This document shows positions 31,520-40,400 of a stretch of DNA of 55,553 nucleotides, piece by piece (position 1 is the stretch's first letter; each line of letters opens with the position of its first letter). Below the pieces are notes generated by a model. The model made no database searches and was not told the origin of the DNA. It was given only the letters and a program-made list of their open reading frames with translations. Source of the stretch: Rouxiella silvae (GTDB taxonomy: Bacteria; Pseudomonadota; Gammaproteobacteria; Enterobacterales; Enterobacteriaceae); NCBI RefSeq assembly GCF_002093625.1, contig NZ_MRWD01000037.1, positions 1-55,553 on the forward strand. The letters run 5' to 3'. Position numbers and translations under genes: made by a program.

Positions 31520-32269
31520 TTACTTTTGAAATCGCCCAAACATTTTATAACGTCCACCCGGATAGAGCAGTCGTGCGCAGGTCACGACTTTTTCCTGATG
31601 CCAAGTGCGGCGCAGTATTTGCAAGCAGGCTTCGGTGTTGCTGATTTTCAGCAATCGCTGTTCTTCGTCATTGGCGATGACTGCTTCAACGGTATGCTCA
31701 CCCGCCGTTAAAGGCGCTAACTGTGAAAGATAGGCAAATGGCGTAGTTTTGGTGAAGTCCTGCTGCAAATAAAGCGGCGCGACTTCCGGGTTAACCACCC
31801 TGTCTTCCAACTGTACCGGATTATCATTTTCATAGTGCACAATCACCGAATGAAACAATTGACTCCCCGGGCGGAGATTGAATTGAATCGCCTGACTGTC
31901 GCTGGCCGTTTGTTTTTGCACCCGTAAAACCCGCGAGGTGTGAAAATGCCCGCGGCTCTTTATTTCATCTGAAATATTACTGACTTCAAGCATCGGCGTG
32001 AATGCTTTAATCTCATTAACGAAAGTGCCGACACCTTGTAAACGCAGCAGATATCCTTCAGTGGATAACTCCCGCAGTGCACGATTAATCGTCATCCGGC
32101 TAAACCCAAGCTCAGAGACCAATTCACTTTCGGACGGCACGCGCTGATGTGGCTGCCAATGCCCGTGAAGGATCTGATTGATAATGCCCTGCTTAACCTG
32201 CTTGTAGAGCGGAGAAGGTTCATCACTGGTCTCTGCAATCACCTCTGATAACGTTTTATTTGCTGACAT
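31520..32269 (-). CDS. HutC-like GntR-family regulator of the lyase operon
   Basis: Transcriptional repressor of the HutC branch of the GntR family: an N-terminal winged helix (about 18-80: PLYKQVKQGIINQIL, VPSESELVSELGFSRMTINRAL) and a UTRA effector domain (about 95-245) ending in YPGGRYKMFGRF, as in HutC. HutC proteins respond to urocanate, so an aryl-acrylate or related ligand is likely here. It is the last gene of the operon, 59 bases after the hydratase gene. ATG 32269 has AGGTGAG upstream; an in-frame GTG at 32278 is less likely. A HutC-type palindrome precedes the first gene of the operon. No hutUHIG genes are present. Confidence 0.88.
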   Translation of the reverse strand: MSANKTLSEVIAETSDEPSPLYKQVKQGIINQILHGHWQPHQRVPSESELVSELGFSRMTINRALRELSTEGYLLRLQGVGTFVNEIKAFTPMLEVSNISDEIKSRGHFHTSRVLRVQKQTASDSQAIQFNLRPGSQLFHSVIVHYENDNPVQLEDRVVNPEVAPLYLQQDFTKTTPFAYLSQLAPLTAGEHTVEAVIANDEEQRLLKISNTEACLQILRRTWHQEKVVTCARLLYPGGRYKMFGRFQK

Positions 32270-32328
32270 TATTCTCACCTTCCGTTGTGCACTGCGAGCG
32301 CTTCGCGAATACGTTGTTCACTGACAAA

Positions 32329-33099
32329 TCAGTCGCCCGTAAATTTCCCCTGCTCTTTCGCCGACAGCGCTCTCATACCTTCGTTTCTGTCTTCACTGGC
32401 GGCAATTAGCGCCGAAAGCGAACGCTCGTAGCTGACACCCGCCGTTAAACTCATATCAAAACTGGCGAGCACGGCGCGTTTTGCCATCATATTTGCCAAC
32501 GGCGAGGCACGGCAAATGTTCTGAGCAATTTTTAATGCCTGATTTATCAGTTGGTCTGGGGCAGTAATCCGGCTAATTAAACCAAACGACAGCGCTTCAT
32601 CGGCATTTAATTTACGTCCCGCGAGGATCATTTCCATTGCCAGAGATTTTCCGACCGCTTTCACCAGCCTCTGGGTGCCTCCCGCACCGGGAATAATACC
32701 AATTTGCGTTTCCGGTAAGCCGAAAATGGCGGTCTCATCGGCAATCACTATATCGCACAACAGAGCCAACTCAAGGCCACCGCCCAATGCATAGCCGGAT
32801 AACGCCGCAACGATCGGGGTATTCATGGCCGCAATGCGGTCCCAATTTTCACTAAAACCGCTGGTATAGAGTGCAATTGCCGAGGCGGTTGCCAGCGTTC
32901 CAGTATCGGCTCCGGCGGCAAATGCGCGCGGAGATCCGGAAATAACTACCGCACGGGTGAATTTATCGGCATCTAGCTCAAGCAACGTGTTCAATAGTTG
33001 AGTGAGCATCTCTGCGCTGAGGGCGTTTAATTTCTCGGGTCGGTTGAGGCCGATGTGCGCGACCCCCTGATGATGCTCGCAGGTGATAAACTCACTCAT
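32329..33099 (-). CDS. Enoyl-CoA hydratase/isomerase family protein
   Basis: Crotonase-fold enzyme of 256 residues, expected to hydrate an alpha,beta-unsaturated acyl-CoA. Oxyanion-hole and catalytic regions are intact: RAFAAGADTG (about 57-66), SGYALGGGLELALLCD and the LPETQIGIIPGAGGTQRL segment. Both glutamates of true hydratases (in GGGLE and LPE) are present, which favours hydration over isomerisation. The start overlaps the dehydrogenase stop by four bases. Within the operon the likely substrate is the CoA ester of the acrylate produced by the lyase; this is inferred from context. Confidence 0.9.
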   Translation of the reverse strand: MSEFITCEHHQGVAHIGLNRPEKLNALSAEMLTQLLNTLLELDADKFTRAVVISGSPRAFAAGADTGTLATASAIALYTSGFSENWDRIAAMNTPIVAALSGYALGGGLELALLCDIVIADETAIFGLPETQIGIIPGAGGTQRLVKAVGKSLAMEMILAGRKLNADEALSFGLISRITAPDQLINQALKIAQNICRASPLANMMAKRAVLASFDMSLTAGVSYERSLSALIAASEDRNEGMRALSAKEQGKFTGD

Positions 33100-33989
33100 G
33101 ATTTTTGCATCCCGTTGATTGAGCGAACGGTGGCGTTGCGGTGCTGCAGGCCTTGCTCGATGTCTTCTGCGCTCCAGCGGTAAAATCCCTCTCCACTTTT
33201 AGTCCCGAGTTTTCCCTGTTCAATTCGCTGCAGCAGCCACGGCGGCAAAACATCTTCATTGGACAACTCAGATAATAAAATTGCGGCCACGTTCTTCACC
33301 GTATCCAGCCCCGCGAAGTCCATCAGTTTAAGTGGACCCATTGCCGACCAGCGCGGAGCCAGCGTGCTTTGCACCGCGAAATCGACATCTTCAATGCTGG
33401 CGATCCCGGCGGTAACCAGATGCAGAGCCTCGCGCAGCATGGCGTACTGTAGTCGGTTGACAATAAATCCCGGCGCTTCCTTATTAATGGTCACCGTTTG
33501 CTTGTCGAGCAGCGCGCAAAGGGCCTTGGCCTGCTTACGGGTCTCTTCGTGTGTTTCAGGACCGCAGACAATTTCAACCATCGGCATCACGTCTGCGGGA
33601 TTGAACCAGTGCAAACCAATAAATCTGGCGGGCGTAGCCAAGACTTTGGCAATCTGCCCCACCGGCACACTGGAGGTATTGGTGGTCAGCAAGCAGTCGT
33701 CGCTGACGTGTTTTTCAATCTCTTGAAACAGCTGCTGTTTAAGCGTCAAAACCTCCGCAATGTTCTCGGAAACAATTTTTGCGCCCTGTAAACATTCACG
33801 TAAAGAGGTGGTGAAGATGACGGACGAAGCCAGCCCTGACTGAATGCTGTCGATCACTTTTTGCGCATTGTGCAGCGATTGCTCCGTGCGCGAATAAAGA
33901 GAAACCTTAAAGCCCTTGGCGGCGAATACGGCGGCGATCCTTGCCCCCATGGTGCCCGCACCAATCACTGCGATTTGCATTGATTCCAT
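33096..33989 (-). CDS. 3-hydroxyacyl-CoA dehydrogenase family protein
   Basis: NAD-dependent dehydrogenase of the 3-hydroxybutyryl-CoA dehydrogenase type. The Rossmann motif is GAGTMGARIA near the start; the catalytic His and Glu are in IGLHWFNPADVMPMVEIV; the C-terminal dimerisation domain has APGFIVNRLQ and GLGTKSGEGFY-type motifs (here GKLGTKSGEGFYRW). There are about 297 residues from ATG 33989; GTG 34004 and ATG 33980 are alternatives. HWFNP is also seen in carnitine and gulonate dehydrogenases, so the substrate could be a free hydroxy acid; the flanking hydratase and CoA-transferase favour a CoA ester. Confidence 0.88.
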   Translation of the reverse strand: MESMQIAVIGAGTMGARIAAVFAAKGFKVSLYSRTEQSLHNAQKVIDSIQSGLASSVIFTTSLRECLQGAKIVSENIAEVLTLKQQLFQEIEKHVSDDCLLTTNTSSVPVGQIAKVLATPARFIGLHWFNPADVMPMVEIVCGPETHEETRKQAKALCALLDKQTVTINKEAPGFIVNRLQYAMLREALHLVTAGIASIEDVDFAVQSTLAPRWSAMGPLKLMDFAGLDTVKNVAAILLSELSNEDVLPPWLLQRIEQGKLGTKSGEGFYRWSAEDIEQGLQHRNATVRSINGMQKS

Positions 33990-34004
33990 TGACTCTATCC
34001 TCAC

Positions 34005-35207
34005 CTAAATGACGCCCTGCTGCTGAAGTTTATCCATCTCCGCCGTTGAAAGACCAAGCCTTTCACCGAGGATTTCACGGGTATGTTCACCCAAACGTGG
34101 GGGCATTAAATCGGGTAGCTCAGTCATGCCGCTCATTTTTACCGGCTGCGGTAAAATAGTCACTTCACCGGCAACCGGATGAATAACCTGATGTAATAAT
34201 CCCCGTTCGACCACGTGCGGGCTTTTCAATACTTCATCCAGTCCCCAAACCGGCGCGGCAGGAATACCAAATTGGTCGAGTAACGCCAGCGCTTCAACGA
34301 TTGATTTATCGTGTAACCACGCTTCAATCAGCACCCGCAGTTCGTATTGATGTTTGAGCCGCTGCGGATCAGTGGCAAAACGTGCGTCTTGCGTCAGCTC
34401 GGGTTTGCCGATGGAATCGGCCAGACGACGGAAAAGGCTGTCATTGGCTACCGCGATCACCAGATAGCCATCGGCGGCGCGATAGCTGTCCATCGGTGCG
34501 CTGATCGGATGCGAGTTGCCCAAGCGTCCGGCTAACGGCATTCCGCCCAGCAACTGGGTCAGCGAAACCATTTGCATCGAGACCATGGCATCGAGCATGG
34601 CAACATCAACGTGCTGCCCCAGGCCAGTTTTGCCGCGTTGCAGCAGCGCCGCCAGGATCCCCCATGAGCAGTAAAGACCAGAGACCACGTCGCCAATTGC
34701 GTCCCCCACCCGCGTCGGTTCGCCGTTTGCCCAGCCTGTGACCTGCATGATGCCGCCCATCGCCTGGATCACGTGGTCATAGGCGGCCTTGTGTGCCAGC
34801 GGCCCCTGCTGACCAAAGCCGGAAATACTGGCGTAAATGAGCTTCGGGTTGATCTTGTTAACCGCGTCGTAGTCGAGGCCGAGACGTGCAGTCACGCCGG
34901 GACGAAAGTTTTCGACCAACACGTCAGCGCTCTCGATAAGCTGCTCTAACAGGGCGCGGCCTTCGGGCGATTTCAGATTCAGCGTCAGGCTTTTTTTACC
35001 GTGATTAAGCAACATGAAATAGGTGCTTTCGCCGTTGAGATGCGGCGTAAAAGCGCGGGAATCGTCACCGGTTTCCGGCATTTCAATTTTGGTGACTTCC
35101 GCGCCTAAATCATTGAGCAAAGAGGCGCAGTAAGGACCGGCCAGCACGCGTGAGAGATCCAGAACCTTCACCCCTTGAAGCGGACGAGAAGCGTTGTGGG
35201 TGGTCAT
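34005..35207 (-). CDS. Class III (CaiB/BaiF family) CoA-transferase
   Basis: Formyl-CoA transferase-type enzyme that moves CoA between carboxylic acids without ATP. 400 residues, usual for the family. The N-terminal LQGVKVLDLSRVLAGPYC and DLGAEVTKIE, then LNLKSPEGR, ENFRPG and the YASISGFGQQGP segment are characteristic. The catalytic aspartate is probably Asp173 in VGDAIGDVVSG. It overlaps the lyase gene by four bases. In this context it would activate the unsaturated acid released by the lyase; the CoA donor is unknown. Confidence 0.9.
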   Translation of the reverse strand: MTTHNASRPLQGVKVLDLSRVLAGPYCASLLNDLGAEVTKIEMPETGDDSRAFTPHLNGESTYFMLLNHGKKSLTLNLKSPEGRALLEQLIESADVLVENFRPGVTARLGLDYDAVNKINPKLIYASISGFGQQGPLAHKAAYDHVIQAMGGIMQVTGWANGEPTRVGDAIGDVVSGLYCSWGILAALLQRGKTGLGQHVDVAMLDAMVSMQMVSLTQLLGGMPLAGRLGNSHPISAPMDSYRAADGYLVIAVANDSLFRRLADSIGKPELTQDARFATDPQRLKHQYELRVLIEAWLHDKSIVEALALLDQFGIPAAPVWGLDEVLKSPHVVERGLLHQVIHPVAGEVTILPQPVKMSGMTELPDLMPPRLGEHTREILGERLGLSTAEMDKLQQQGVI

Positions 35208-36745
35208 GCTGATTCTCCATTGACGGCTGTCGGGAAAATAATCGGTTTGAGTGCCTGATAAATGTCCCCTTGCTTAATCAACTCGCGCACGGCCAGCATG
35301 TCCGGGTACATTTCTGTGTCACTTTGCCTGAACGCCACCCGTTGACGAACCCGCGCAAGCACCAATTCAGTTCCGGCAGAGGCGCGCAGCGGTCGGTGAA
35401 ATTCCACCGCCTGAGTGGCGCATAAAATTTCTATCGCCACGATATCAATCGCATTTTCAACGGCATCAATTGCATTGCGAGCCGCCGTAACGCCCATGGA
35501 AATGTGGTCTTCCTGTCCGGCACAGGTCGAAACGGTATGCACGCTGGCAGGAGCCGCCAGCGCCCGATTCTCACCGGCCAGCGCCGCAGCGGCATAGGGC
35601 GGGATCATCATGCCTGAATTCGCCCCGCCGTCGGCCACTAAAAAGGCGGGTAAACCGCTCAGATGACTGTTGGTAAGACGATCGGATCGCGCCTGCGAAC
35701 CGGTGCTCAGCTGTGCAATGGCAATGGTCAGCGCGTCGAGACACAGTGCCACCGGCGCGCCGTGTCCATTGCCGCCAGGCAGCACGTTAAGCTCGCCGTC
35801 TTCAATCATAAACACCGGGTTGTCAGTGACTGAGTTAACCTCGGTGGTCAGTATTTTCTGGCAATAGCTCAGCACATCGCGCACCGCACCGTGGATTTGC
35901 GGAATACAACGCAGGCTCAGTGCATCTTGCACTCGGAAGTCGCGATACTTGTCGAGGATCTCGCTGTCGCTAAGTAAACATCGCAGTATGCGCGCCGTTT
36001 CCTGCTGCCCCTTGTGCGGGCGCAGTGCATGAAGACGTGCATCATATCCACGAATGTTACCCTTCAACACTTCAAGGCTCATGCCTCCGGCAGCATCGGC
36101 CACAGGAACCAGCGCACTTAAGGATCCTGCGGCCAGACAACCCAGCGCGGTAATTTCATAGGTTCCACTGACCAACGCATGCCCTTCACGCGGGCCGGGG
36201 ATGCGTACGGCAATCCCCGCCCGTTCCAGCGCCTCTCTTGCTGGTAAAAGTTCGCCCAGATAGTATGATTTCCCATAGCCGAACACCGACAGCCCGATAT
36301 GTGCGGTGGCTATCAGATACCCCACCGACCCTTTAGCGGGTGACCAGGGAACCACGCCTTTATTGAGCATCTCGGCCATAGTTTGCACCAGCGAGGGACT
36401 CACGCCGCTAAACCCCTGCAACAGTGATTTAATCATCACCGCCATCATAGCTCGGACTTCATGCTGCGCCAGAACCGGCCCAATACCGCAGGCATGACTT
36501 TTCAACATGTTGAGCTGAACGTCAGAAATCTGCTCAGGGGATAAACGCTGGGTAACCAAATCCCCCACGCCGGTGGTCAGCCCGTAGATCACTTTATTGT
36601 CTGCAATTGCCTGGCGGATTTTTTCATGAACGTTCAGCATGCCATCCAATGCCGACGCCTCAAGCAATACCTCGGCGCCGTAGGCAATTGCAGCAATCTC
36701 GCTGACTGAGGTTTCGGCGGTACCTAATGTGACGGATTGAGTCAT
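35204..36745 (-). CDS. Histidine ammonia-lyase-fold protein without MIO triad (candidate betaine lyase)
   Basis: 513-residue member of the HAL/PAL superfamily. Conserved are YGLTTGVG (54-61, active-site Tyr54), FSGV, KGSVG (138-142), SLRC (277-280, with Arg279), TDNP (307-310), FLVADGGANSG and QEDHISMG (411-418, with Glu412). However, the Ala-Ser-Gly that forms the MIO electrophile, normally right after GSVG, is missing: the sequence runs GSVGYLIATAH, three residues shorter than HAL's GSVGASGDLAPLAH. The Tyr of QDPYSLRC (HAL Tyr280) is Leu (QDALSLRC). MIO loss is known, as I recall, from ergothionase, which eliminates trimethylamine from ergothioneine. With a betaine-type importer directly upstream, a betaine lyase is the best guess. 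It overlaps the binding-protein gene by one base. Confidence 0.82.
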   Translation of the reverse strand: MTQSVTLGTAETSVSEIAAIAYGAEVLLEASALDGMLNVHEKIRQAIADNKVIYGLTTGVGDLVTQRLSPEQISDVQLNMLKSHACGIGPVLAQHEVRAMMAVMIKSLLQGFSGVSPSLVQTMAEMLNKGVVPWSPAKGSVGYLIATAHIGLSVFGYGKSYYLGELLPAREALERAGIAVRIPGPREGHALVSGTYEITALGCLAAGSLSALVPVADAAGGMSLEVLKGNIRGYDARLHALRPHKGQQETARILRCLLSDSEILDKYRDFRVQDALSLRCIPQIHGAVRDVLSYCQKILTTEVNSVTDNPVFMIEDGELNVLPGGNGHGAPVALCLDALTIAIAQLSTGSQARSDRLTNSHLSGLPAFLVADGGANSGMMIPPYAAAALAGENRALAAPASVHTVSTCAGQEDHISMGVTAARNAIDAVENAIDIVAIEILCATQAVEFHRPLRASAGTELVLARVRQRVAFRQSDTEMYPDMLAVRELIKQGDIYQALKPIIFPTAVNGESA

Positions 36746-37629
36746 TATTTATCCAGACCGTGTTGAGTCAGCCACTCTTTAGCGACGACGTCGACGCTCA
36801 CGAAATTAGCCAGCTTGCCGTTCATGTCGATCAGGTCGCTGGTGGTCAACTGTTTGGAAACGGCGTTAAGGGTTTGTTCAACCACAGCGCTGTCTTTGTC
36901 TTTGGCAATCAAAGGTACGATGTTTTGCGCAGGGAACAGGTGCTTGGAATCGGTCAATGCCACCAGATTTTTAGTTTTCATCGCAGGGTCGGTTGAGGTC
37001 ATATCTGCCGCCTGAATCTGATTATTGGTCAGTGCTGACAGGGTAAGCGGGCCCGCAACGTCAAGAACTTTAAAATTTTTAAAAGTAAGGCCGTAGACTT
37101 CGTTCAGCCCCTTCACACCTTCACGACGGGTTTTCCACTCTGCCGGGCCACCCAGCACGAGGGTTTTAGCAACCGGTGACAAATCACTGATGTCTTTCAG
37201 ATTAAATTTCTTCGCCGTTTTCTCGGTGACGGCCAGCACATCGCTGTCTTGGGCTGAAGAAATCTCGAGCATCTTTATTTTTGCGGGCAACGCTTTCGCC
37301 AGCGCGGCCGCCACATCTTCAGGAGCATGCGCCTGCGCTTTCTCGTCGAGATAGCTCAGCGTTGCGCCGCTGTATTCGGGGATCAGATTAATCGAACCGT
37401 CGAGCAACGCAGGCATGTACACTTCACGGCTGCCGATGTTTAGCTTGGTTTCTACTTTCACGTGTTTAGCTGCCAGCGCCTGCTGATAAATGGTGGCAAT
37501 CAGCTGGCTTTCCGGGAAGTCTGCTGAACCGATAATTATTGTGCCTGTGGCTTCAGCGGCAAAAACTGCCGGGGCATGAACGACAACGGCTGAGAACAGT
37601 GCAACGGTGAGCAAATTTTTCAATTTCAT
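36745..37629 (-). CDS. Periplasmic substrate-binding protein of a quaternary-amine ABC importer
   Basis: OpuAC/OsmF (YehZ)-family binding protein of 294 residues with a signal peptide (residues 1-24, cleavage near FA-AEA). IIIGSADFPESQLIATIYQQAL, SREVYMPALLDGSINLIPEYSG and the AADMTSTDPAM segment are typical of glycine betaine/choline-type receptors. These bind quaternary ammonium groups in an aromatic cage; here Tyr residues in REVYM and PEYSG are candidates. Related proteins also bind ergothioneine in other bacteria. The ligand is unknown; the adjacent lyase suggests an aromatic amino-acid betaine. Confidence 0.9.
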   Translation of the reverse strand: MKLKNLLTVALFSAVVVHAPAVFAAEATGTIIIGSADFPESQLIATIYQQALAAKHVKVETKLNIGSREVYMPALLDGSINLIPEYSGATLSYLDEKAQAHAPEDVAAALAKALPAKIKMLEISSAQDSDVLAVTEKTAKKFNLKDISDLSPVAKTLVLGGPAEWKTRREGVKGLNEVYGLTFKNFKVLDVAGPLTLSALTNNQIQAADMTSTDPAMKTKNLVALTDSKHLFPAQNIVPLIAKDKDSAVVEQTLNAVSKQLTTSDLIDMNGKLANFVSVDVVAKEWLTQHGLDK

Positions 37630-37663
37630 TTTGTCAGGCTCCGATAATGAATTATTAGATGGA

Positions 37664-38371
37664 TTAACTGTTCGATAAAGAAGGTGTTTTCCGACGACGG
37701 CGTTGCCGCTGCCGTATTCCTGGTGAGACCATTAAACGAATTAAAAAAGAGAATAAAACATCAACCAGTAACGCTAAAATTCCAACCATTACGGCACCCG
37801 AAACCATTTGTGGGTAATCATTCTGGGCGCGGCCGTCAATAATCAGACGTCCTAAGCCGCCGAGAGAAACATACGCGGCGATGGTGGCAGTCGAGATTAT
37901 TTGTAATGCAGCACTTCTAATACCGGATAATATGAGCGCCAGCGCACAGGGAATTTCAACCGTAAGCAATAATTTCCACGGTGAATATCCCATGCCAATA
38001 GCCGCGTCTATTATCGAGGGGTCAATGGCCCTGATTCCCGAGTATACGCCCATCATTATCGGTGGCAGCGCAAGCACAATCAGTACGATAAGACACGGAA
38101 CAATAAAGGCCAGATCCGATTCAAACACCGGACCAAAAATAATGACCAGTAGAATAATCAGACCAAATGACGGCAGTGCGCGCATAGCATTGGCACTGCC
38201 AATTAATAAGGTTGCCCCTTTACCTGTATGTCCAACATAACAACCGACGGGAAAAGCAATAATGACCGCCGCGGCCAACGCTTCGACGCTATAGATCAGA
38301 TGCTGAAAAATAAGCATCAATAAACCATCGTCGTTTAACCAATGCGCAGAGTCGAGAAGCCAGCTAATCAT
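37664..38371 (-). CDS. ABC transporter permease (OpuC/YehW type)
   Basis: Inner-membrane permease of 235 residues with about six membrane segments and the binding-protein-dependent permease domain: ANAMRALPSFGLIIL, IMMGVYSGIRAIDPSIIDAAIGMGYSPWKLL (EAA-loop, with GMG) and ALQIISTATIAAYVSLGGLG. It overlaps the other permease gene by four bases and is separated from the binding-protein gene by 34 bases. With the second permease it should form a heterodimeric channel. Confidence 0.92.
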   Translation of the reverse strand: MISWLLDSAHWLNDDGLLMLIFQHLIYSVEALAAAVIIAFPVGCYVGHTGKGATLLIGSANAMRALPSFGLIILLVIIFGPVFESDLAFIVPCLIVLIVLALPPIMMGVYSGIRAIDPSIIDAAIGMGYSPWKLLLTVEIPCALALILSGIRSAALQIISTATIAAYVSLGGLGRLIIDGRAQNDYPQMVSGAVMVGILALLVDVLFSFLIRLMVSPGIRQRQRRRRKTPSLSNS

Positions 38372-39018
38372 TTCGCACTCCTTTTCGGTTGCCAGCGGGT
38401 CATTTTATTGCCGGTACGCAGGACAAGGTTGTCCAGCACCAAAGCCAACATAATGCACAGAAAAATACCGGCGATAATCGGCGTCAAGAAATGCAGTTGA
38501 AAACCCTGAGTAAATAACGCACCCAGCTGTGGCATACCCACCAGCGCCGATATGGATACAATACTGACGTTAGACACCACAACCACCCGCATCCCTGCTG
38601 CAATCACCGGCACTGCCAACGGCAGTTCAACGCCGATAAACCGCTGCACGGGACGGTATCCCATCGCGGTCGCCGCCTGATGTGTTTCGGGCGGAACAGA
38701 ATCCAGCCCGTCGCAAACGGTGCGAATAAGGAGTGCAAAGGCATAAATTGTTAATGCAACCACGACATTAACGGTATCGAGAATTTTGGTACCCAGCAGC
38801 CCAGGAAGTAATACAAATAATGCCAGAGAAGGAAGGGTATACAGCAGCCCGATTATATTAAGGATACCGTCTTTAAATTTCCCGCAGCGCTGTAGCAACC
38901 CGCCCACTGGAATAGCCAAAGCCAGGCCAATAAATACCGGTACAATAGACAAATAGATATGCCATCCCAGCAGCATTACTATATTGTCCCTTTGCTCAAA
39001 CAACCAATCGAAGCGCAT
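38368..39018 (-). CDS. ABC transporter permease (OpuC/YehY type)
   Basis: Second permease of the importer, 216 residues, the same size as OpuCB-type subunits. GLLYTLPSLALFVLLPGLLGT and the EAA loop GLDSVPPETHQAATAMGYRPVQRF are characteristic. It starts four bases after the ATPase stop and ends inside the next permease gene (ATGA overlap), showing translational coupling. Confidence 0.92.
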   Translation of the reverse strand: MRFDWLFEQRDNIVMLLGWHIYLSIVPVFIGLALAIPVGGLLQRCGKFKDGILNIIGLLYTLPSLALFVLLPGLLGTKILDTVNVVVALTIYAFALLIRTVCDGLDSVPPETHQAATAMGYRPVQRFIGVELPLAVPVIAAGMRVVVVSNVSIVSISALVGMPQLGALFTQGFQLHFLTPIIAGIFLCIMLALVLDNLVLRTGNKMTRWQPKRSAK

Positions 39019-39022
39019 GGCA

Positions 39023-40117
39023 TTACCTCATATTGGACGTGTGAGTAAGCGAAAATGCCTGTTCGATATTAGCAGTACCGATAAATCGCTGATTTTCGTC
39101 AACGACAATTCCGCGCTGGCAGGGGGAGCTGAGTATTGAATCCATTAATTGCCGCAAAGTGCCATTTTTAGGGGCAAAGGTGCTGCCAAGATTTATGTCC
39201 TCGGCTTCAACGGTCAGTTTATTGCTGTTAACGTCGAACCAGCCGAGTGGAATATTATTCTCGACCACTAAAACCCACTGTTCATGACCCGCGATTGCTT
39301 TCGCATCGCTGACCGAAAATCCTGTCGTAATCATCTTCTCTTTATTGAGCCGGATATTTTCAGGAATAGCGTCAAAAGACAGTTTACGGTAGCCGCGATC
39401 GCGGCCGATAAAGTCTGCAATAAAGGTATCTTCAGGCTCGTTTAACAGCTTAACCGGCGCGGCAATCTGTGCCAGACGACCTCCCGGTCGAAACACCGCG
39501 ACCTGATCGCCTAATTTCATCGCTTCATCAATATCATGAGTCACCATGATGATTGTTTTACCGATTTCACGCTGCAAACGTAAAAACTCGTCCTGTAACT
39601 GCTCACGCACCACCGGGTCGACGGCGCTAAAAGGCTCGTCCATCAGCATAAACTCAGGATCTGAAGCCAGTGCGCGTGCAACGCCTACCCTTTGCTGCTG
39701 ACCACCGGATAACTGCCACGGATAGCGTTCTGCCATTGCGGTTGAAAGTCCCACCAGCTCTAAAAGCTCCAGGGACTTTTTACGCGCCGCCTGCCGCGTT
39801 GCCCCATTGAGCAGCGCAGTGACGGCGATGTTGTCTTGAACCGTTTTGTGGGGAAACAGACCGGCATTCTGAATGACATAACCAATCTTGCGCCGAAGTT
39901 TAACCAGGTCCATCCCTGCCGTGGATTGCCCGTTAAGCAAAATAGATCCAGAAGAAGGCTCTATTAACCGGTTGATCATCCGAAGTGAGGTCGTTTTGCC
40001 GCACCCCGAAGGCCCTACCAGCATGGTGATTTTTGCCGTCGGGGCGCTGAACGACAACCGGTCTACCGCCACCGTCCCGTCTGGGTAAAATTTGCTTATG
40101 TTCTCAAATGAAATCAT
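39023..40117 (-). CDS. ABC transporter ATPase with CBS domains (OpuCA/YehX type)
   Basis: ATP-binding subunit of the quaternary-amine importer and first gene of the operon. From ATG 40117 it has 364 residues. Walker A is GPSGCGKTT, the signature LSGGQQQRVGVARAL, Walker B EFMLMDEP, and the switch HD is in MVTHDIDEAM. The C-terminal 100 residues resemble CBS modules (VVDENQRFIGTANIEQAF), which sense ionic strength or nucleotides in OpuA-type importers. An in-frame start 57 bases upstream (40174) would add a non-conserved tail and run across leader sequence. The operator TTGTATGTACAA lies 79 bases upstream. Confidence 0.92.
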   Translation of the reverse strand: MISFENISKFYPDGTVAVDRLSFSAPTAKITMLVGPSGCGKTTSLRMINRLIEPSSGSILLNGQSTAGMDLVKLRRKIGYVIQNAGLFPHKTVQDNIAVTALLNGATRQAARKKSLELLELVGLSTAMAERYPWQLSGGQQQRVGVARALASDPEFMLMDEPFSAVDPVVREQLQDEFLRLQREIGKTIIMVTHDIDEAMKLGDQVAVFRPGGRLAQIAAPVKLLNEPEDTFIADFIGRDRGYRKLSFDAIPENIRLNKEKMITTGFSVSDAKAIAGHEQWVLVVENNIPLGWFDVNSNKLTVEAEDINLGSTFAPKNGTLRQLMDSILSSPCQRGIVVDENQRFIGTANIEQAFSLTHTSNMR

Positions 40118-40400
40118 GAAGTTTCCAACCACATTACGGAGTGTTTTAACAGAGCATCTGCATCGCATCATCATGCAGACCTAACATGTACTAACTTGTA
40201 TGTACAACCAATGCAAACAAGATGCCAATTTCATTGAAGGTGAGAATGTAGGCGGAATCACTGGGTGTAATGCTTCGAAATGGGGTATGAAGAGAAAACC
40301 GTGGAGGGATATTTTTGCACTATTAATACGCAGCACGCACCAGTTCAGTGCTCGGAATTAACTGCACACAGAAAAAACATGATGTTTAAAACACAGTAAA
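40118..40400. promoter_or_regulatory. Upstream region of the lyase/importer operon
   Basis: No gene is seen. On the minus strand a TTGGCA (plus 40223-40228) could be a -35 element, with TACATA 18 bases further as a poor -10 that overlaps the operator at 40196-40207. The arrangement fits repression by a HutC-type protein but is not certain. Confidence 0.45.
40196..40207. promoter_or_regulatory. HutC-type operator
   Basis: TTGTATGTACAA is an inverted repeat TTGTA-N2-TACAA of the type bound by HutC-family regulators (TGTA-N2-TACA core). A second ATGTAC copy at 40186-40191 lies 14 bases from the ATGTAC within the operator (40200-40205) and may be an accessory half-site. The operon encodes its own HutC-like regulator as last gene. 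Confidence 0.75.

Follow-up and report, generated by a model that had tools for sequence, protein, structure and literature searches.

A putative HutC-controlled operon of Rouxiella silvae with an MIO-free HutH paralog, proposed to import and cleave a histidine-derived compound, and its accompanying CoA-dependent trio

Which compound is taken up and cleaved by the products of a nine-gene operon in Rouxiella silvae, and whether its coenzyme A (CoA)-dependent enzymes replace or accompany the histidine utilization (Hut) pathway, are the questions raised by the locus analyzed here. The operon lies in a stretch of 55,553 nucleotides (contig NZ_MRWD01000037.1, hereafter the window) and encodes an ATP-binding cassette (ABC) importer, a lyase without the 4-methylideneimidazole-5-one (MIO) triad, a trio of CoA-transferase, enoyl-CoA hydratase and 3-hydroxyacyl-CoA dehydrogenase, and a HutC-like regulator. 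The reading favored here, to which a probability of about one half is given, is that of a cassette under HutC control that would import and cleave a compound derived from histidine and feed urocanate to Hut, with the trio alongside. The ABC system would import the compound, and the MIO-free HutH paralog would expel a group better than ammonia (a step proposed on the general chemistry of leaving groups), most likely trimethylamine from hercynine, and release urocanate. The ordinary HutU, HutI, HutF and HutG enzymes, whether clustered or encoded elsewhere in the genome, would then convert urocanate to glutamate, and the trio would work in parallel on a second acid, already unsaturated or beta-hydroxylated, which could be an analogous compound made by the same lyase or else the half of the substrate without the imidazole.

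The lyase is a complete PF00221 protein from which the MIO triad is gone (GSVGYLIATAHIGL): it reads GSVG-YLIAT-AHIGL, compared with GSVG-ASGDLAP-LAH in HutH. The triad (Ala-Ser-Gly) is replaced in all 34 distinct sequences of the clade, that of the window included, which agrees with the first-pass annotation of this DNA, and its first and second positions are Tyr and Leu throughout. In what we take to be the active-site numbering of histidine ammonia-lyase (HAL), mapped onto the lyase through the structure-match alignment, Leu occupies the Tyr280 position and Gly the Phe329 position in each of the 34, 29 have Ser and five have Gly in place of Asn195, and H83, R283 and E414 are kept in all, as is Y53 in 33 (one gap). 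The window lyase falls below the HutH equivalog TIGR01225 (490.3 bits, cut-off 539.15). In a tree of 54 of the 71 lyase sequences, made without seven near-copies, some ordinary HutH rows, one fragment and the ergothionase 6s7j, the MIO-free clade with the window lyase forms one side of a branch with an approximate likelihood ratio support (SH-aLRT) of 100; the MIO-free groups also join on one side, with a support of only 81 in an unrooted tree with long branches. The clade consists of three branches without a settled mutual order, one of Alphaproteobacteria together with Microbacterium, one enterobacterial with the window, and another enterobacterial one. That an MIO-free member of the superfamily of HAL and phenylalanine ammonia-lyase (PAL) can be a trimethylamine lyase is known from the ergothionase of T. 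denticola (6s7j), as described in the accessible portion of PMC13405746.

The connection with Hut is seen both in whole genomes and within loci. HutU exceeded its cut-off in all 15 lyase-bearing genomes of the family, compared with 56 of 149 background family genomes (Fisher p 1.4e-6), a contrast that serves only as a rough guide, since the background contains reduced genomes of small size and no fewer than four that carry the lyase (G000, G396, G450 and G516). For two genomes rated 100% complete, G708 (6 contigs) and G730 (1 contig), the MIO-free lyase is the sole PF00221 protein, and HutU lies approximately 3.9 kb from it. On the Klebsiella pneumoniae plasmids pINF019_1 and AR_0087 unnamed1, the lyase and the importer stand between hutG-hutI-hutU and hutD-hutC-hutF, and no second lyase ORF (open reading frame) of at least 400 aa was found in the 29-kb stretches examined. 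The clustered hydratases of Cedecea (L036), Microbacterium (L048) and Acidisoma (L049) reached 895.3, 833.2 and 1013.4 bits against the urocanate hydratase model (cut-off 375), 652.1, 663.9 and 692.3 bits against thiourocanate hydratase (NF058530, cut-off 930), and 678-720.5 bits against the S-methyl model (cut-off 880). The single HutU of the window genome scored 959.2 bits against TIGR01228, the one model applied to it. Ordinary urocanate-side cut-offs were passed by HutU, HutI, HutF and HutG in Cedecea and by HutU, HutI and HutF in Microbacterium, each tested HutI, HutF and HutG exceeding at least one equivalog cut-off. Hut genes stand beside the trio in Cedecea, as tested by profiles, and in Klebsiella indica and Kosakonia sacchari (L041 and L045), as judged by eye with hutU matched. 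Because of the HutU companionship, the HutC operator described below and the urocanate-type hydratases, the lyase probably makes urocanate for Hut, a product that we consider about three times as credible as not; hercynine as its substrate is our best guess and is offered tentatively. Ergothioneine as the sole substrate is disfavored, as these three hydratases miss the thiourocanate model and the hut partners in Cedecea and Microbacterium pass urocanate-side cut-offs; likewise, ergothioneine is not favored as the main substrate.

Regarding distribution, the lyase (E<=1e-120) was detected in 15 of 392 family genomes and the dehydrogenase (E<=1e-90) in nine, all within those 15 and all with the dehydrogenase approximately 1.3 kb or less from the lyase (Fisher p 9e-15, relatedness ignored); at most three and six candidates were scored per genome in these scans, so misses are possible. 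A phylum-wide draw with the Acidisoma lyase matched one of 398 genomes, the window's own. The cassette is thus rare and patchy. A scan of genome contigs gave 22 lyase loci, including L050, L052 and L054, which lie outside the clade at 34-39% identity. Further counts refer to 31 loci, made up of the window and the loci longer than 9 kb with a lyase of at least 55% identity (L087 and L092 dropped as repeats of L034 and L077); they were made by hand on loci of unequal length, with near-copies kept. The trio is present in 20 of them, hutU in 18 and both in nine. The order importer-lyase-transferase-dehydrogenase-hydratase of the window recurs on plasmids of Rhizobium, Neorhizobium, Agrobacterium and Sodalis, and in Microbacterium a single strand carries, in this order, the importer, HutU, lyase, trio, an amidohydrolase, HutF and HutI. 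In Acidisoma, the transferase is set apart and has 48% identity.

Among plasmids, 178 of 72,556 records matched the Acidisoma lyase (E<=1e-120): 161 of Klebsiella, 12 of Rhizobium, two of Escherichia and one each of Neorhizobium, Agrobacterium and Sodalis. Both Klebsiella records opened (of 161) were without the trio, and a dehydrogenase search of plasmids gave four Klebsiella records, three of them shown at 34-35% identity. The importer and lyase together occur in two of 5,426 E. coli genomes, on plasmids. With relatives on Rhizobium and Klebsiella plasmids, the system is mobile. As the gene order recurs in Gammaproteobacteria, Alphaproteobacteria and Microbacterium (with HutU inserted), and in view of the co-occurrence statistic, the arrangement is more than chance, and the operon is a real, conserved and mobile unit; the single unit proposed in the first-pass annotation is supported by its tight packing and by this recurrence. 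The same annotation had made its route depend on co-occurrence of these genes elsewhere, and all nine dehydrogenase-bearing genomes indeed carry the lyase, in addition to the recurring plasmid order. No description of this operon was found in the open-access literature searched. It is conceivable, though stated with reserve, that the operon represents a mobile system undescribed in that literature, which would convert hercynine or a histidine conjugate to urocanate and have a second, CoA-dependent branch. We know of no pathway containing such a branch, be it for thiourocanate, another acrylate or a non-imidazole half.

The proposed control by HutC rests on the regulator and its operator. The regulator exceeds the HutC equivalog TIGR02018 and remains below another HutC equivalog, NF011575 (305.9 bits, cut-off 424). 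The sequence TGTACATACA is found 78-95 bp before the ATPase gene in 19 of 20 enterobacterial loci, and TGTA-N2-TACA occurs within 400 bp of this gene in 20 of 25 loci scanned (Agrobacterium L091 was outside the scan). One near-match to the operator is expected by chance in the window (0.94), and the weight of the site lies in its position and conservation; the 5.28-Mb window genome has 19 TGTA-N2-TACA sites, fewer than the 42 of a reversed control pattern. Both the operator consensus and urocanate as the effector of HutC are given in the available text of PMC12977541. A HutC-type gene was found in 24 of the 31 loci. The HutC-like nature assigned earlier to the regulator is consequently upheld by the TIGR02018 score and the HutC-type operator before the operon. 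In addition, contig 32 of the window genome, with an ordinary hutH and hutU, has zero TGTA-N2-TACA sites, and these genes may be under another regulator.

The trio appears to be equipped for catalysis. Both catalytic Glu residues of the crotonase and the Ser, His, Glu and Asn of the dehydrogenase, whose roles we take to be those of the respective families, were retained in all 20 sequences compared, and Asp169 of the CoA-transferase in 20 of 21 (Glu in the remaining one). The solved structures closest to the CoA-transferase are formyl-CoA transferase 10uh (291.3 bits) and succinate-HMG (hydroxymethylglutarate) CoA-transferase 9br7, and CaiB 1xk6 reached 100.4 bits. A carnitine-type function was rejected on this distant CaiB match and on the score of the hydratase against the crotonobetainyl-CoA hydratase model (140.4, cut-off 500). 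The dehydrogenase matched 4om8 best (178.5 bits; next 154.0), an aldehyde-oxidizing pyridine enzyme atypical for hydroxyacyl-CoA dehydrogenases; a hydratase-lyase and aldehyde-dehydrogenase scheme drawn from this likeness was set aside as less likely in view of the conserved residues of both enzymes. Neither a thiolase nor an acyl-CoA dehydrogenase is among the nine genes, and the incomplete gene tables of the plasmid stretches list no thiolase. Because there is no acyl-CoA dehydrogenase, the trio would fit an acid with a pre-existing double bond or beta-hydroxyl group. An already unsaturated acid is the type of product expected from elimination, which is the best argument for the CoA route of the first-pass annotation. 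The trio is present in all three branches of the lyase tree and missing in scattered enterobacterial rows, and, as read off the tree rather than formally reconstructed, it is probably ancestral and was lost repeatedly. One genome (G516, L088:9169-9393) has a 75-residue CoA-transferase remnant beside an intact lyase, likely a recent loss of the trio. Being optional and accompanied by hutU in nine of the 20 loci that contain it, the trio is more likely a complement to Hut than a replacement for it, and its substrate may be the lyase product, a thio-analog or the other half of the lyase substrate.

These three possibilities lead to different explanations of the operon. It was originally suggested that CoA activation, hydration and beta-oxidation of the lyase product itself, be it urocanate, thiourocanate or a different aryl-acrylate, take the place of Hut. 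The closeness of dehydrogenase and lyase in nine family genomes, the probable ancestry of the trio, the conserved catalytic residues of hydratase and dehydrogenase and the lack of an acyl-CoA dehydrogenase among the nine genes all speak for this route, and the trio is missing in nine of 18 loci with hutU alongside, versus two of 13 without it (near-copies counted). However, every lyase genome has HutU, hut genes adjoin the trio in Cedecea, Klebsiella indica and Kosakonia sacchari, and a thiolase is not among the nine genes; moreover, replacement is hard to defend because hutU and the trio, together with HutF, HutI and the lyase, share one strand in Microbacterium. Replacement of Hut is accordingly disfavored, and this explanation is regarded as unlikely, although it comes next after the favored one. 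The coexistence of trio and Hut, as well as the optional nature of the trio, could be accounted for if one lyase had two substrates, hercynine giving urocanate for Hut and ergothioneine giving thiourocanate, which HutU could not use and the trio would degrade. An MIO-free ergothionase does exist (6s7j), but the positions near the thioimidazole of ergothioneine in EgtUC are changed in the binding protein of the operon (see below), and the open-access literature searched gave no earlier example of thiourocanate being activated with CoA; such a double role is likewise unlikely.

Trio and Hut on one strand could also be explained by a conjugate of histidine (or imidazolelactate), from which the lyase would expel an acid-bearing half for the trio and release urocanate for Hut. 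The ligand pocket, which is acidic and largely non-aromatic, would agree with this, but the nine genes include neither a hydrolase nor a transaminase to process the other half, and the partners of other MIO-free groups, transporters of the betaine/carnitine/choline transporter (BCCT) family, point to quaternary amines. We know of no such histidine conjugate, and the idea is considered rather doubtful. It has also been reported, in the portion of PMC5343134 at hand, that HutC regulons include several HutH paralogs and histidine ABC transporters, which, like the non-cage pocket, would be compatible with ordinary histidine uptake next to a dead or structural HutH paralog. Two genomes with HutU have no other PF00221 protein, however, and the kept HAL residues H83, R283, E414 and (one gap aside) Y53 speak for an active enzyme, making a dead paralog improbable. 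The lyase might instead act on other aromatic betaines, derived from tyrosine or tryptophan, with coumarate- or indoleacrylate-like products for the trio. Tyrosine lyases, too, bind the ring at the position of His84, but the Hut genes, HutC and the operator indicate imidazole, and of all explanations this is the one given the least credence.

The favored reading, a cassette that would deliver urocanate to Hut, itself faces several difficulties, one of them in the ligand of the importer. The importer is an OpuC-type ABC system with an OpuAC-family binding protein whose relatives include 4z7e (Lmo1422) and EgtUC, so the transporter family named in the first-pass annotation ("betaine-type importer") stands, but the ligand cage does not. 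The ligand residues of EgtUC, including the aromatic cage F293, Y341, Y419 and Y443, were taken from the accessible part of PMC9732360. On the basis of these positions, the 32 binding proteins all have Y86 for F293, D130 for Y341 and Q235 for Y443, and residue 211, for Y419, is T in 25, L in five and Y in two; N339 is D in 19 and N in 13, R168 and E164 stand for R379 and E375, and, near the thioimidazole, G244 and T275 are replaced by F38 and R68 in all 32. With just one of four cage positions retained (Y86), a trimethylammonium ligand is unsupported by the pocket because the cage is mostly lost; the altered cage speaks most strongly against a simple betaine ligand, and "betaine" is for this importer an inference. 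The following points also weigh against the favored reading. The window lyase shares with ergothionase the absence of MIO in a HAL homolog, yet it is closer to HutH 7tqr (332.5 bits) than to ergothionase 6s7j (168.7). No gene for handling methylamines is among the nine, and a plain route from hercynine to glutamate leaves no role for the trio. A HutC-type gene was not found in seven of the 31 loci (L033, L034, L048, L049, L075, L088 and L089), Microbacterium having an IclR-family gene in its place, and TGTA-N2-TACA was absent within 400 bp of the ATPase gene in Sodalis, Microbacterium and three of four rhizobial loci scanned. The reading frame of the Microbacterium lyase does not extend upstream of about residue 62, and this copy may be broken or missequenced; in Acidisoma, an importer match was absent in the locus search. 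Shared ecology or relatedness may underlie part of the HutU association, and the reduced genomes of the background are without HutU for other reasons. In support of the reading, MIO-free lyases of other groups adjoin BCCT transporters (L057 and L050).

The features of the operon are listed in Table 1. The gene coordinates and the overlaps described earlier, of four bases at 33096-33099, 35204-35207 and 38368-38371 and of a single base at 36745, were borne out by the ORF list. The ATPase ORF ends with its stop at 39023 and is open upstream to 40174, ATG 40117 being the start chosen in the first-pass annotation. A scan for promoters and terminators performed no better than on shuffles. The neighbors on either side are presumably rluB and yciO. 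An identical gene set between the same two neighbors is present in a genome of the same genus (G714, L085), and in another (G588, L086) rluB and yciO are approximately 200 bp apart and a trio-less lyase operon lies on another contig; the stretch of a further locus (L084, G493) spans yciO only, its rluB side being outside the view.

Table 1. Genes of the operon and the putative operator in the window
Feature	Position	Strand	Basis
HutC-type GntR/UTRA repressor	31520..32278	-	PF07702, PF00392; TIGR02018 293.3 bits, cut-off 220
Enoyl-CoA hydratase (crotonase), E110 and E130	32329..33099	-	PF00378; closest solved relative EchA8 3pzk
3-Hydroxyacyl-CoA dehydrogenase family	33096..34004	-	PF02737/PF00725; closest solved relative 4om8
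Family III (CaiB/Frc) CoA-transferase	34005..35207	-	PF02515
MIO-free aromatic amino acid lyase, HutH paralog; urocanate release proposed	35204..36745	-	PF00221, 515.5 bits
OpuAC-family substrate-binding protein, ligand cage altered	36745..37629	-	PF04069
ABC permease 2	37664..38371	-	PF00528
ABC permease 1	38368..39018	-	PF00528
ProV/OpuC-type ABC ATPase	39023..40117	-	PF00005; TIGR01186 297.9 bits, below cut-off 326.6
Putative HutC-type operator TGTACATACA, TGTA-N2-TACA	40197..40206	.	starts 89 bp before ATG 40117

Other lyases of this kind were also observed. A second MIO-free group with the motif GSVGYL[ST]HMAH (L055, L056, L057 and L058) is either surrounded by hut genes or preceded by a HutC-type site; in L055, L056 and L058, the lyase adjoins an importer with a family-3 binding protein, and a TGTATATACA site lies just before the binding-protein gene. 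The Priestia megaterium plasmid NZ_CP085419.1 (L093:9010-10548) has an annotated hutH without the MIO triad (GSLGYLNHQAHISL), clustered with hutU, hutI and an agmatinase-family gene. Two loci on large K. pneumoniae plasmids (L073 and L074) have a hut set with the MIO-free lyase at its core, and L073 also contains a gene of the cytosine-permease family. In Microbacterium, a second ORF upstream of the operon (L048:1268-2806, minus strand) looks by eye like an aromatic amino acid lyase.

These observations suggest that annotated histidine or aromatic amino acid ammonia-lyases near hut genes include MIO-free enzymes that act on another substrate. Should the lyase prove to act on hercynine, the operon would represent a gene system for degrading this compound and would open a route to trimethylamine; relatives of the lyase are present in 161 Klebsiella and 12 Rhizobium plasmid records. 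According to the available part of a 2026 paper (PMC13405746), E. coli annotations contain no functional ergothionase homolog, although early extracts were active; a strain-specific activity is now testable, with two of 5,426 E. coli genomes carrying the plasmid importer and lyase. As judged from sequence, the core biochemistry is probably the conversion of a histidine derivative to urocanate via an MIO-free lyase.

Compared with known systems, the operon resembles the hut pathway under HutC in its HutC-type repressor and operator and in having hutU within 18 of the 31 loci; it differs in that HutH is replaced or joined by an MIO-free paralog with its own importer, and in the addition of the trio in 20 loci. 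The aerobic ergothioneine route likewise begins by eliminating a group other than ammonia from a histidine derivative, whereas the three clustered hydratases scored here are below the thiourocanate hydratase NF058530, and the Microbacterium hydrolase is below the N-carbamyl-glutamate hydrolase ErtE (NF058540; 259.4 bits, cut-off 520). The quaternary-amine ABC importers EgtU and OpuC belong to the same transporter family as the cassette importer, in which most cage residues are changed. Carnitine (Cai) and CaiB-type schemes also combine a CoA-transferase with a crotonase, but CaiB is a distant relative and the cassette adds an NAD dehydrogenase. With the ergothionase of T. denticola, as far as it is described in the accessible portion of PMC13405746, the lyase shares the HAL/PAL superfamily and the absence of MIO, while it scores about half as high against that enzyme as against HutH and, in the three loci scored, is clustered with a urocanate rather than a thiourocanate hydratase.

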